From Coemansia sp. RSA 487 (lineage: Eukaryota; Kickxellomycota; Kickxellomycetes; Kickxellales; Kickxellaceae): a DNA stretch of 64,000 nucleotides. The position numbers and the translations under genes are program-made. The stretch is from assembly GCA_027577595.1 (NCBI GenBank), contig JANBRJ010000071.1:1-64000 (forward strand), read 5' to 3'. Each line of letters starts with the position of its first letter. Position 1 is the stretch's first letter. Positions 5,874 to 17,157 of this stretch are shown piece after piece. The notes beneath the pieces were generated by a model. That model searched no databases. It was given only the letters and a program-made list of their open reading frames with translations, and had not been told where the DNA came from.

Positions 5874-6560
5874 TACAGCGGTGAGCCGATGTTTTTTTCC
5901 CTTTTGATGCAAGGGTGAGCAAATGTCTTTTTTTACTGTGTAACCTTTATTATTTGAGGAATTCTAAAATGACTTTTGCAACTTCCTTCCCTTAGCGTTT
6001 GTCTAGATTCTTGTAGACTATATAAACTATGACTTATCCATTATCTGCTAGAAAACAAGCTATCAAGAAGAGTGATCAAGGTCTCCCTCTTCATACAATA
6101 GCTGAACATTTAGACTTGCTTATGTGAACTGTGCGAGCCTTGATCAAGCATTTCGATGAATGTGAGACAATAGAGCCTAAACCAAAGAGTGGCAGAAGAT
6201 CGAAGATCAACAAACAAACAGATCATAATAGATTTAGATCTCGATATTTGTCACCAGTACATTGGAAAGATTCTGAAAGATGGAGGCATCGTTTCTAGGG
6301 TAGCAAGGAAGATGTCATTTATTACTGATAAACGGGTGAACGAGCAACTGGTTTGCCAACAACCATATCAATTGGGACATCAAAAAGTGGAAGGAGCTTA
6401 TATTCACTCACGAAAGCACCTTCTGGCTCAACCTTGGTCAGTCAAGAACTCTTGTAAAGCGATCTAAAAACAATGAGCTTAATAGGCGTAATACTGTTGG
6501 TACCTTCAAAGCAGGTGAGCGTTTTAGGTGTGGTACCACGCTTCTGTCAGCAAAGAAGAC
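5874..6560 (+). mobile_element. Tc1-type DNA transposon, truncated copy
   Basis: A terminal repeat begins at the TA at 5874 and carries two direct GGTGAGC..ATGT repeats, the inverted-repeat/direct-repeat style of some Tc1 elements. Downstream, broken frames resemble a Tc1 transposase: the helix-turn-helix part (6,060-6,300, nearly the same as 8,720-9,040 in the second copy) and a catalytic-domain fragment around FTHESTFWL (6,390-6,430). Relative to the second copy, about 70 bases are missing near 6,210 within the DNA-binding region. The 3' part of the gene and the right terminal repeat are absent; similarity to a Tc1 gene fades near 6,500-6,560. It cannot be autonomous. Confidence 0.75.
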
Positions 6561-6886
6561 CAAGAAACCCGTGAGAGACGCCAAGAGACCTGCCAGTGGC
6601 TCTGCGCAGCCTAGAAAGAAACCTTGTTCAGCGACATCGCAGCAGCAGTCTTAACATCAACCATGCTTTTCCCTGGGTGCTATAGCACTCCAGCTGTCCA
6701 AAACCGTTCTGGGCAGAAATTAATGCCAGATACAAAATTTCGGCCGTCACACGTTAGTGGTAATCGGAGGTCATCGGCAATTTGCGCCTTTCTTTCCCAC
6801 TCTTTCATTTGTTTCGCTATTACTTTTTCTATCTGCTTCGTTAGCTACTTTATTTATCTGTACTCTGCTCTAGTTCTAAGTAAATT

Positions 6887-13211: not shown

Positions 13212-13301
13212 TACTGTATGCTGCAAAACTATTTGCGTCGAATGGTGAAAGGTTTGCGGTGGCGATAATGCATTTTGCGTTCCAAGAAAAAGGCGTTTGC
13301 G
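13212..13301 (+). repeat. Left terminal inverted repeat of the Fanzor element
   Basis: About 90 bases matching, in reverse, 17,050-17,157. The core GAATGGTGAAAGGTTTGCGG and the following GATAATGCATTTTGCGTTCC are identical in both ends. The outermost part is more diverged and shorter here. Confidence 0.88.
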
Positions 13302-13554
13302 CAGGCGTGGCAAATCGTTTGCGTCGGTTGGCGTAGCATATACGTCAGCGCAAAACAGGAAAACACAAGAGAAGACACAAATGGTTAGCACCGTTGGTAA
13401 AGTACCATCGTCAAAAAGCAGTCGCGGATGCTTATCTCCTCGGCTCTCATCTGAGCACCTACCTGCAAAAGGGACAGCATCCTATCCTAGAACTAGGATT
13501 CATAGAACTAGGGTTTGCCGCGGCTATAACCTTGGCTGAATGCCGTGGTGGCTG
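13212..13554 (-). ncRNA. Candidate guide (omega) RNA region of the Fanzor system
   Basis: Position-based inference. In known Fanzor and TnpB systems the guide RNA scaffold is made from the region from the nuclease 3' end to the transposon end, with the guide taken from flanking DNA beyond the end. Here that is the 343 bases from the Fanzor stop to the left end, read on the minus strand. Support: about 240 bases of it (13,212-13,450) are also kept in the short element at 57,487-57,700, including a GCAAAACAGGAAAACAC word and the AAAAAGCAGTC segment. No promoter or fold is proven. Confidence 0.4.
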
Positions 13555-15711
13555 TTATTTGCTCGTCCTCGCCGTCTTCCTTTTCTTCTTGGGCTGCTGC
13601 TCATCGGTGGTAGCAACGGCTGCAGGCTGACTGCGACAGAAGCGCTCTGGAGTCTCGTCATGATCGCGAAGGTCATGGAAAATATGCCTGAAATTGAGAA
13701 CGGCTGCAAGATCTCTGTTGTACATGCGTGAACGAGGAGTCAAAACTCCATCCACTTCCACGGGACCCATACATAGTTCGTTGGTGCACTTAAGGAGACC
13801 ATGGCAGAGCACTTCTTTCATCTTCTCTCGCTGGTAGGGGCGGGGGTTGGGCACTTTCAGGAACTTCTCAAGAGTGCCAGTGAGGCAGTTTGGGCAAGCC
13901 TTTGATGTTCTGAATTCGTCAATAAGATAGACCTGGCACCCTTTCTTCCTCAGAATTCGCCGAAATCCGACCCCCCGTATAGGCTCATGGTAGCGAGCCA
14001 TTGGCGCACTCCAGTTGCCTAAGATCACAGTGGGTTTTTCATCGTTGCATGTCGCCCGAATGCTCTTTGCTAGCCGCTCATCGGTTTGTTGCTGCTTGAT
14101 GTGGGCAGATTGCCGAAGCCTGCGATGAATTGGCTGAGGGCTGTTCCGAGTCTTGCTGGTGGTCATGGTGTTCGTGTAGAATTTACTCAGCACTGGCCAA
14201 ACGGCAGCACGCGTCCTGACATATTGCCCATATTTGCCTGGAAATATCGATGTGCACGAAAAAGCAGCCAATCTGGCCTCGGCAGCCTTGATCTCGTTGC
14301 TGTCTGGATGCCCGTTCTTGACCTTTTCCCTCAGCTTGCGATAGCGGGTTGTTCGGGTTTCTTTAGCCTTCTGGCTCCGTGTGTATCGGAAAAGAGCTTT
14401 CTCCTCAGAGGTGCTCTCATCTGTTATGCCAAAGACAATGTCCTGGCGACCCGGATCCATGAAAATTGGATTTTTTATGTTGGCCAGCTGCTCTGGCGAA
14501 AGCTCGTGGATATATGTGAACTCGCCCGGTTTCTTTTCTCCTGGCTTTTCTCGCTTCCTGGGCCTCCTGGGCTTCCTGGGCTTCTTAGACTGGTCCTCTG
14601 GCAGTGAGTCAGTAGCTGTGCTCTCAACTGGAGCTGTCAGCCCACTTCTGCTGGCCTCGATGGCAGCATTTGCTTCAGCATCCCTTTTCTTCGCTTTCCA
14701 GCTGTTTTTTTCTTTGGCTGTTGCAATCTTTTTGATCACAGACACTGACACGCCATCAGTCTGTATCGTGCCATAGAATCCGAAGCCGTTTCTTGTCCGT
14801 AGCACCCTCGATTTTTCATTGAAAAATTTATACCAATAAGTTTCAATGGGAAATTTCGCGTTATAGCTCCAGCCCATTATGCTTCGACATAATATTCTGG
14901 TGTCAATTTCAATGTGCATCGGCACAAACGACTTCCGCAACGGGAAACACTGGAAAGATCTGTAGTCATTCATCTCAAGAAGTACTGCCAAGCGACAAAA
15001 TGCTTTGAAGTGCTTTTTTGGATGCGCCTTGATATCGTAATAAATACCTTCCTCCTCAAGCTCGTAGTCGTTGTCATATGCTGTCAACACAGGTTCAAGC
15101 ATGTCCCCGATGTTCTTGTCGCCCACAGTGATAACTGGAAGAACAGTGTTGCGGTGCTTTATCGCCTCTTTCAACACTTGCCCGGGTTTCCAAATCTGGT
15201 CTTCATATGCTTCCTTTATCTCATCCGTTGTTCTGTCCTTCATTGCCTCCTCAAGGTCCCTCTTGCGCTCCCGAGTTTTCAGCAGAACATTTACTGCACG
15301 CCGAAGATACTGACCAAACTTGGTCTGTATATTATTCACGTATGCAGTGTAAACTCTTGCTGCCTCGAACTGTGCTGTCTGGTTTGGGTTGGCTATATCA
15401 AACTCTGTGATGCCAGCAGCCTCCTTGTACGCATCCAGGTGCTTGCGTATGACCCTCCTGTACTCCTGGATTTCAGCCTTGACATTTGGCCTGGCTTTCC
15501 GCTTGGTGAGGTGCAGGAATACCTCACCAAAAAATCTCTTTTCCAGGTACACAGAGGGATCGAACTGCTTGTGAGTAGCCAGCTCATGGACAAATATCCA
15601 ACGAGCTAGCCCATACATGTGTGCAGAGGCTGTGTTAGCCACTACAACATAGTCGTTTACCTTGGTAATATCATTTCTGTCGTTTACCCCCTGTGTCTGA
15701 TGTATCCTCAT
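13555..15711 (-). CDS. Fanzor (eukaryotic TnpB-like RNA-guided endonuclease)
   Basis: 718 residues from the first in-frame ATG (15711). The frame is open for 70 more codons upstream but without an ATG, so an upstream exon is possible. Seen: helical N-terminal region (YVVVANTASAHMYGLARWIFVHEL), RuvC-I FMDPGRQDIVFG (Asp419), GNWSAPMARYHEPIRG, then DEFRTSKACPNC (Glu599) leading into a zinc ribbon (Cys606, Cys609, Cys642, Cys647) and RuvC-III YNRDLAAVLNF (Asp667). This is the OrfB/TnpB C-terminal layout. A Lys/Arg/Pro-rich stretch (KKPRKPRRPRKREKPGEKK) in the middle could be a nuclear localisation signal. Family members are guided by a transposon-encoded RNA and cut DNA beside a short motif. The usual TnpB glutamate position (VILGNWS) has no Glu; the Glu beside the zinc ribbon may replace it, as reported for Fanzors. 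The frame has no stops or frameshifts, so the protein may be active. Poor match to host genes in context shows it is element cargo. Confidence 0.9.
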   Translation of the reverse strand: MRIHQTQGVNDRNDITKVNDYVVVANTASAHMYGLARWIFVHELATHKQFDPSVYLEKRFFGEVFLHLTKRKARPNVKAEIQEYRRVIRKHLDAYKEAAGITEFDIANPNQTAQFEAARVYTAYVNNIQTKFGQYLRRAVNVLLKTRERKRDLEEAMKDRTTDEIKEAYEDQIWKPGQVLKEAIKHRNTVLPVITVGDKNIGDMLEPVLTAYDNDYELEEEGIYYDIKAHPKKHFKAFCRLAVLLEMNDYRSFQCFPLRKSFVPMHIEIDTRILCRSIMGWSYNAKFPIETYWYKFFNEKSRVLRTRNGFGFYGTIQTDGVSVSVIKKIATAKEKNSWKAKKRDAEANAAIEASRSGLTAPVESTATDSLPEDQSKKPRKPRRPRKREKPGEKKPGEFTYIHELSPEQLANIKNPIFMDPGRQDIVFGITDESTSEEKALFRYTRSQKAKETRTTRYRKLREKVKNGHPDSNEIKAAEARLAAFSCTSIFPGKYGQYVRTRAAVWPVLSKFYTNTMTTSKTRNSPQPIHRRLRQSAHIKQQQTDERLAKSIRATCNDEKPTVILGNWSAPMARYHEPIRGVGFRRILRKKGCQVYLIDEFRTSKACPNCLTGTLEKFLKVPNPRPYQREKMKEVLCHGLLKCTNELCMGPVEVDGVLTPRSRMYNRDLAAVLNFRHIFHDLRDHDETPERFCRSQPAAVATTDEQQPKKKRKTARTSK

Positions 15712-16269
15712 TATCCATTGGGGATGGGTGAGCAAACAAGAGCAGATAACTAATATAATATATGCGTTGAAAGGTGTATTTGGCGTTACTAGTAGCAATA
15801 AAATGTCGAAGGAAAGCCAAGGAGAAACAAAAGCGAAAAGGAAAAACAAATGTCCTTTGGTCGTTATATAGCATTGACTAACGTTGTCATCAATGTCACG
15901 CTGCTTTTCCTGATCAGGCACACATTCTCTTTTCGTTTTTTAGCTTGCTTGGGAACACTTGCGATACTGATATATCACTTTTGGCAAGAATATCAAGAGA
16001 GCGGATGAAAATAAAATTCCTCATCTTTATTTTTCATAAACAACCTGGCTTTTATAGCCGTACAAACGCTACAACAACTGAACTAGATGATTGGGAAGCA
16101 TACGCTATGTGCTTCCCGACAATACGATTGTCTCTTGTCGGAACAAGCATATTACGATGGCGGCTCAGCAGCTCGCGAGGCTAATCGTTATCACAGTTAC
16201 AAAAGAAAATCAGAAACGTTGGTTATTTTAACTGAAGGAAGGAGCTTTCAAATTATCCACAGCAATCAG

Positions 16270-16850
16270 GGGATTGAGTACAAGCTTTGTTTATCTGTCT
16301 TTGCAGCGAGAGAAGGATGTCATGGAATTTCTGATGTAGCCTTAGCAGTCTGATGTTATCACTTTGTCGACTGCCTCACATGTTCTATCATTGAGTCTGT
16401 CGTCTGCTGTAAGCGCTGTTCTGCGAACACCCGATTTTATTTTGGACCCAAGCTCCTCAATGGGATTTAGAAAGAGTGAGTATGGAGACAGATATAGACA
16501 CTCGTATCCTCTGTTTTCTATTAGATCTCAAATGGCTAATGGCGTGTGGATTGGAGCATTGTCCATCACAAGATAGTGGCCCTTCATGTCCTTTGCATCC
16601 AGTACATCGAATGTATTTGAAATGTAGACCAGAAAGTGCTCTCCGTCCGTGTGCCAACACGCCCACCAACCCTGATCTCCTTACCATTAGCCTTTCTCTT
16701 TTTGGCAGCAGAAACAGTCTGAAGCCTTCTCAATGAAACACCCATCAACATGCGCATGCATACAAACATGTTCTTTGACCCATTATTTGGGTGGCAGTCT
16801 TCCAACATATCTGCATCTGGCAAATAGTGCATGGCTTAGTTATTGTTTTT
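16270..16850 (-). pseudogene. Decayed IS630/Tc1-superfamily DDE transposase
   Basis: Translation of the minus strand across frames gives CMRMLMGVSLRRL, KDMKGHYLVMDNAPIHTPLAI, then after a stop DLIENRGYECLYLSPYS and FLNPIEELGSKIKSG, and at the end GYIRNSMTSFSRCKDR. The DNAPIH and LSPYS..LNPIE blocks are the second and third catalytic blocks of DDE_3-type transposases. At least two stops and one frame change are visible, and only about 150 bases separate the 5' edge from the terminal repeat, so the N-terminal DNA-binding half is missing. It is the presumed former mobilising enzyme of this element and lies upstream of the Fanzor gene on the same strand. Confidence 0.82.
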
Positions 16851-17049
16851 GTTCAAGGTAGTGGTAGTATTTCTTCAAATTGTTAGGTTTCATTGGGATC
16901 AATGTTAACTAGCCACATTGAAAGCACAGACAGAGACCGAGAAGCCAATCCATTTTTAGTGTGGAATAATAGGTGTGTAGCGAACAGCTTTCTCCACAAA
17001 GCCCAGTTTGCGCCTCTTACTTCCAAGCGCAAATAAGGTCATTCGATAC

Positions 17050-17157
17050 AAACGCCTTTTCCTTGGAACGCAAAATGCATTATCGCCACCGCAAACCTTT
17101 CACCATTCGACGCGTATACATCCTTATTTGACGCAACTGGTTTTGCAAAACACTGTA
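17050..17157 (-). repeat. Right terminal inverted repeat of the Fanzor element
   Basis: Inverted counterpart of 13,212-13,301. Unlike the left end it keeps the AATAAGGATGTATACGCG segment that is also seen in the copy at 57,487-58,236, so it is closer to the ancestral end. It stops 24 bases before the stop codon of the CLYBL-like gene, whose 3' untranslated region it probably forms. Confidence 0.85.

Follow-up and report, generated by a model that had tools for sequence, protein, structure and literature searches.

In Tc/mariner elements flanked by repeats and TA duplications, Fanzor1 genes have been described both together with a mariner-type transposase and on their own (Bao and Jurka 2013, PMC3627910). 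One such family, CMe-1A, is old (~80% identity to the consensus) and retains some intact Fanzor1 frames, which was called unusual (PMC3627910). In Spizellomyces punctatus, the Spu-1 element of SpuFz1 is represented by 42 Fz loci (19 full), with Gypsy/Ty3 inserts, 134 Fanzor-less 'ghost' loci and a guide RNA directly behind the stop codon; for its persistence 'recent duplication or strong selection' was left undecided, and the discussion of that study describes the biological role of Fanzor as not known (Saito 2023, PMC10432273). The presence of Fanzor1 in mariner elements, the existence of Fanzor-only elements, the long persistence of coding capacity, and both gypsy inserts and ghosts have already been published (PMC3627910, PMC10432273). 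Here we analyse an element of this known kind from Coemansia sp. RSA 487, located in the first 64,000 nt of contig JANBRJ010000071.1 (the window), whose interest is the contrast in selection inside the element: copies of its Fanzor1 gene have been under purifying selection in a family whose transposase, passenger and inverted repeats have decayed. No published treatment of purifying selection on Fanzor, nor of a Coemansia Fanzor, was found in the literature searched, to which subscription journals were mostly external. The features on which the comparison depends are the following.

13212..17157, no strand: copy of a Tc1/IS630-type transposon, bounded by TA on either side and lacking the gypsy-like passenger (TA edges, repeat arms, homologous copies with different flanks)
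13555..15711, minus strand: open frame of Fanzor1, 718 codons long and starting at a non-native ATG, with D419, E599, D667, a C4 ribbon and PKKKRK near its end (homology, motif check)
13464..13554, minus strand: noncoding 3' block, most strongly conserved at 13506-13535; candidate scaffold of a guide RNA (fRNA), first stem ~13517-13536 (diversity profile, position, motif)

The layout of Fanzor1 and a mariner-type transposase between TA-flanked repeats is shared with the Tc/mariner elements of Bao and Jurka, from which the present case differs in that retention was quantified at codon level, with transposase, passenger and repeats as the standard of comparison, and in that the copies look immobile. 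Like Spu-1, the Coemansia family has many copies, gypsy-type inserts, Fanzor-less loci and a (candidate) guide RNA behind the stop codon; in Spu-1, however, the repeats are well conserved and no transposase was found, whereas the Coemansia repeats drift and transposase remnants are present. A phmmer search against PDB sequences identified Parasitella parasitica Fanzor1 (PpFz1, PDB 9cf0; Xu 2024, PMC11423790) as the best solved relative (E 1.5e-101), followed by Spizellomyces Fz1 (1.2e-43) and Guillardia Fz1 (GtFz1, 0.0048). The alignment with PpFz1 covers query residues 20-694 in three stretches; its C-terminal part breaks at the RuvC insertion of PpFz1, and the window copy lacks an N-terminal segment.

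Copies were collected from the 17.8-Mb assembly of the same genome (184 contigs, of which the window is contig C71). The whole-element DNA search returned at least 102 matching pieces at 78-100% identity, including the window element itself, a lower bound because 40 of 249 candidates were scored, and the protein search at least 72 pieces, including a second Fanzor family. Among the fetched loci, 28 align to the Fanzor gene, 17 of them near full length, and these copies show that the family has been under purifying selection. The ratio of nonsynonymous to synonymous change (dN/dS) by NG86 had a median of 0.27 (range 0.205-0.413, 136 pairs, 17 copies), and the codon maximum-likelihood (ML) estimate, omega, was 0.429 for the same number of near-full-length copies, with 0.436 on terminal and 0.369 on internal branches of a star-like tree whose long tips account for roughly nine tenths of its length. 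Omega was 0.397 for open copies, 0.429 for copies with one or two lesions and 0.547 for those with many, each class rejecting 1. By comparison, omega was 1.04 for the transposase (13 copies) and 0.843 for the passenger (9 copies), the latter not different from 1 (twice the log-likelihood difference, 2dlnL, 3.3). This passenger is an extra ~2.5 kb held by many copies, with protease- and reverse-transcriptase-like pieces, to which 12 fetched copies align; the label "gypsy-like" reflects sub-threshold protease matches and reverse-transcriptase-like stretches judged by eye.

The same contrast is seen in the distribution of differences over codon positions (0.25/0.24/0.505 in Fanzor, flat in transposase and passenger) and in the number of stop codons. 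The 17 Fanzor copies together contain 9 stops, against 73.9 expected under neutral simulation (minimum of 400 runs, 55), and the deficit reaches the 5% level in 14 copies taken singly; for the passenger, 1.84 stops per copy were expected and 0-4 observed. The RuvC residues are D-E-D in 19 of the 21 copies covering the glutamate and D-K-D in the other two, so the neutral decay of these residues that the original prediction had named as evidence against itself did not occur, and the question it raised, whether selection keeps the Fanzor beyond its transposase, is answered for the family by the constraint on its copies. Recent gene conversion is not favoured as a cause, with synonymous divergence equal in Fanzor (0.238) and passenger (0.232).

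Conservation extends past the stop codon. With incomplete stretches masked, diversity among copies falls from 0.111 in the last part of the gene to 0.045 in the block after the stop; the spacer has 0.160 and the left repeat 0.143-0.168. The first stem is reported to be the sole constant part of Fanzor1 RNAs, the remainder being possibly unconstrained (Xu 2024, PMC11423790); a scaffold with one constant first stem, as in PpFz1, fits the conservation profile of the Coemansia block, which we regard as a candidate guide RNA stem. The block sits ~250 nt inside the element end, and an Rfam search with it gave no match. We do not claim an element-internal guide directly behind the block; a long unconstrained scaffold reaching to the element end fits published Fanzor1 RNAs equally.

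The block motif, CAAGGTTATAGCCGCGGCAAA, occurs at 92 places in the genome at up to 2 mismatches (44 exact), and its reverse at none. About 30 of these places lie at listed Fanzor matches; among the remaining 62, some are truncated by a contig end. Twenty fetched places without a listed Fanzor match proved to be mostly short derivatives (three were cut by contig ends), 11 of the 20 sharing one deletion junction and 3 another; the derivatives retain both repeats, the start of the transposase, the final 100 codons of Fanzor, and the block and the spacer. More widely, numerous short Fanzor-less derivatives of at least two deletion classes were seen (L052-L079), and some of their junctions fall inside the block, which shows that spreading did not need it. 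Loci sampled by the motif are biased for it, and the comparison used a sample obtained with a probe outside the block (the best 32 derivative rows, 40 of 135 scored), the motif lists being compared by hand. Among these 32 derivatives the 21-nt motif was present without mismatch in 6, with one mismatch in 12 and with two in 5, and was not found in the other 9; the 21 Fanzor-bearing copies gave 15, 4, 2 and 0, respectively (exact matches, Fisher 1.8e-4; a second Fisher value for the motif comparison was 0.008). From gene tail to repeat, derivatives differ from one another by 0.159 and Fanzor copies by 0.112, and the two groups are alike in spacer (0.162/0.165) and repeat diversity (0.148/0.155). 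Because the block region is less conserved in derivatives while spacer and repeat diversity are alike, it seems that the stem is retained in cis with the Fanzor gene; the lower conservation gives no support for a use in trans of guide RNAs from loci such as the published ghosts.

A second Fanzor1 family of the same genome, ~40% identical to the first (L034-L048; C113, C23, C101, C66, C54, C65, C41, C81 and others), replicates the constraint on Fanzor in a different kind of element, one without long inverted repeats. Five of its 10 near-full-length copies are fully open. Codon ML gave an omega of 0.371, and NG86 gave 0.24 with one place counted twice (L043/L044), a duplication of which the ML figure is free. 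The 122 nt from its stop codon to the element end fold strongly (z -6.7, 12 copies) and finish at the 3' end of the element, as in published Fanzor RNAs, in which this family differs from that of the window. The 3' regions of both families begin with a stem around TATA.

The ends of the window element and the spacer next to its left end are placed as follows.

13212..13299, plus strand: left terminal inverted repeat (arm match; copies vary here as much as in unconstrained parts)
17049..17157, minus strand: right terminal inverted repeat, ~20 nt longer than the left one (arm match)
13300..13463, no strand: spacer separating the 3' block from the left repeat (as variable among copies as unconstrained parts)

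Across the 20 elements with both arms, from 23 loci, arm divergence was 0.173 within and 0.171 between elements. The copies look immobile because their repeat arms diverge within elements as much as between them.

We favour, with a confidence somewhat better than even, an explanation in which a single old burst was followed by decay of ends, transposase and passenger in place, with the Fanzor gene and its stem kept by purifying selection at many loci. A Tc1/IS630-type transposon carrying Fanzor1 and a guide RNA would have spread in this burst, along with short Fanzor-less derivatives; its transposase, passenger DNA and inverted repeats would then have decayed where they stood, so that the copies stopped jumping, while the Fanzor gene and the short noncoding stem behind it would have stayed under selection. 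Most copies would have died late, of single frameshifts or of stops, and the window copy of a 32-nt deletion where the gene starts. The 3' end of the transcript would act as guide RNA, its first stem binding Fanzor, and the complex would cut DNA matching the guide; the selected trait would be this cutting (or binding) and not transposition. For example, an allele without the element might be cut and the element copied back in or retained, or there might be a use at the level of the host. That Fanzor has such a job apart from transposition, with immobile loci keeping the gene and their own stem in cis through self-retention by cutting or through host use, and with the stem spared only beside Fanzor, is a possibility we advance tentatively. 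If transposase, ends and passenger decay while nuclease and presumed stem stay constrained, the benefit of the nuclease would be separable from transposition, and the role of Fanzor would become a testable question in a fungus with open copies of two Fanzor1 families.

Several observations weigh against this explanation. The Fanzor tail (95 codons) gave an ML omega of 0.652 in derivatives (17 copies; against 1, 2dlnL 13.5) and 0.683 in 10 derivatives of one junction (2dlnL 7.0), compared with 0.445 for the same codons in Fanzor-bearing copies. An omega below 1 in derivatives means that this sequence may have a baseline under 1, in which case transposase and passenger overstate the contrast; alternatively, the derivatives may be younger than supposed, or less neutral. 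Frameshifts are frequent, lesions being present in 13 of the 17 near-full-length copies (one to several each, many at short homopolymer runs), and only the remaining four (L004, L006, L008, L016) are open from the native start. The fold of the block is weak (alignment z -2.0, 20 of 21 copies; single-sequence z -1.39), and the arms of the window copy differ by just 0.043, unlike those of most elements, a value also found in one derivative. Bootstrap values in the tree are mostly low and kinship among copies is poorly resolved. Finally, that the copies have remained unmoved for most of their separate history is something we infer from the drift of their ends.

The strongest competing explanation, which we consider unlikely, is that selection acted through transposition: lineages kept jumping, Fanzor was needed for that, and the present copies are recent landings of long-separate lineages, for which only a few end bases and a transposase acting in trans would be needed. 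This is the classic course of a transposon, and it would suit copies with few stops but frameshifts in most of them, as though they had died after a recent landing. Proteins from other strains also give it some room, since insertions may differ between strains: P0002 and P0007, for example, reach at best 88-89% among the 30 own-genome loci compared. However, the repeats drift at the rate of the spacer, arms diverge independently inside elements, and even the end bases vary, in a star-like tree with long tips; moreover, these repeats also drift in Fanzor-less derivatives, which are similarly divergent.

It is improbable that the apparent constraint is largely mutational, with transitions dominating (kappa 7-11) and the third positions of this gene mutating faster. 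Kappa is indeed 7.6 in Fanzor copies and 10-11 in derivatives, and the Fanzor tail of the derivatives, with the omega values given above and a third-position diversity of 0.198 against 0.14, points the same way, but the contrast persists with transversions alone (0.38 in Fanzor against 1.19 in passenger and 1.39 in transposase), the stop deficit remains, and the noncoding block is conserved as well.

The window copy itself is probably no longer a working gene. Its frame retains the features that the original prediction had described, being open over 718 codons with the RuvC residues Asp419, Glu599 and Asp667 and a C4 zinc ribbon (CPNC at 606, CTNELC at 642), followed by NRD at 665, and its expected match to Fanzor proved to be of the Fanzor1 type. 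The published Fanzor motif, D-X(125,275)-[TS][TS]-X-X-C4 ribbon-X(5,50)-RD (Bao and Jurka 2013, PMC3627910), runs from D419 through RD666-667. Pfam's sole near match, Cas12f1-like_TNB, scored below its cut-off (17.3 bits against 26.3), a miss that was not taken as defining because the open sister copy P0003 also falls short (20.3 bits). Near the C terminus (window 13555-13600), PKKKRK, which we take to resemble a classical nuclear-import signal, is present in the window copy and in 7 of 8 other aligned proteins of the family; P0009 has PKKKWK. The damage lies at the other end of the gene.

15671..15718, minus strand: present reading from the native start codon, 15 codons and a stop (alignment of copies)
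15679..15697, minus strand: stretch across the junction of the 32-nt deletion (alignment of copies)

A 32-nt stretch present in 23 of 25 aligned copies is cleanly deleted from the window copy (L026 is rearranged there), with the result that the native ATG at 15718 now meets a stop at 15671 after 15 codons; the open frame of 718 codons has a different phase and starts 7 nt downstream, at a non-native ATG. The deletion removes the conserved codons TRVIKCPLKSL from an N terminus that reads M(G/D)NEDxSDTGTRVIKCPLKSLVNDR in sister proteins, and the lost VIKCPLK, corresponding to VVKVPLQ in the second family, is presumably the first strand of the WED domain, judging by TnpB/Fanzor architecture. Four WED strands position the first guide bases (Xu 2024, PMC11423790). 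With its in-frame native start lost and its N-terminal domain incomplete, the Fanzor is not the apparently intact gene of the original prediction, and the suggestion that it may still make an active nuclease finds no support. A shortened, active Fanzor from the downstream ATG is very improbable, as the open frame and its retained catalytic and ribbon residues stand against the loss of a segment conserved in both families, putatively the first WED strand, and against a 15-codon frame preceding the new start. The branch of the window copy has an omega of 0.315 (against 1, 2dlnL 24.4), which reflects the time before the deletion, and the copy probably died recently. An identical protein appears on three contigs in the protein database, which makes it probable that more than one strain carries the damaged copy. 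A separate 27-nt in-frame (9-codon) deletion of a conserved N-terminal segment is common to L016, L011 and L025, of which L016 is otherwise open.

The transposon around this gene is of the predicted IS630/Tc1 type, and its transposase is dead, as had been proposed.

16423..16745, minus strand: transposase (DDE_3) fragments with one stop and a frame change (match to sibling frame of C19, Pfam DDE_3 E 3.5e-19)

TA is present at both edges (13212-13213 and 17156-17157), and the inverted-repeat arms at 13230-13299 and 17049-17118 are 96% complementary over 70 nt. The DDE_3 transposase is represented by remnants only, at 16423-16650 (one stop) and 16638-16745, on the minus strand like the Fanzor frame; these short pieces have no Pfam match of their own but are 71-78% identical to the C19 sibling frame that matches DDE_3. 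The family transposase is of this type, with the best frames found (C19, C81) open across the catalytic part, and the C19 element with its gypsy-like passenger measures 6.4 kb. There is no support for a Tc1 element that existed first and later took up a Fanzor module: a search with the sequence adjoining the block gave 78 matches at up to 3 mismatches, and the 8 picked out by hand as having no listed block nearby all carry part of the Fanzor 3' end or block, so that no empty site was seen.

The window element is flanked by genes for a carnitine acyltransferase and an HpcH/HpaI-type lyase, one on each side, its right end 25 nt from the stop codon of the lyase gene. Elsewhere in the assembly, many Fanzor copies end at contig ends near element position ~1000-1300 (C81, C54, C41, C151, C140, C22, C148, C21), probably an assembly effect of a conserved stretch. 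The window also contains, at 6516-6779, a fragment of the second Fanzor family's element with 85% identity.

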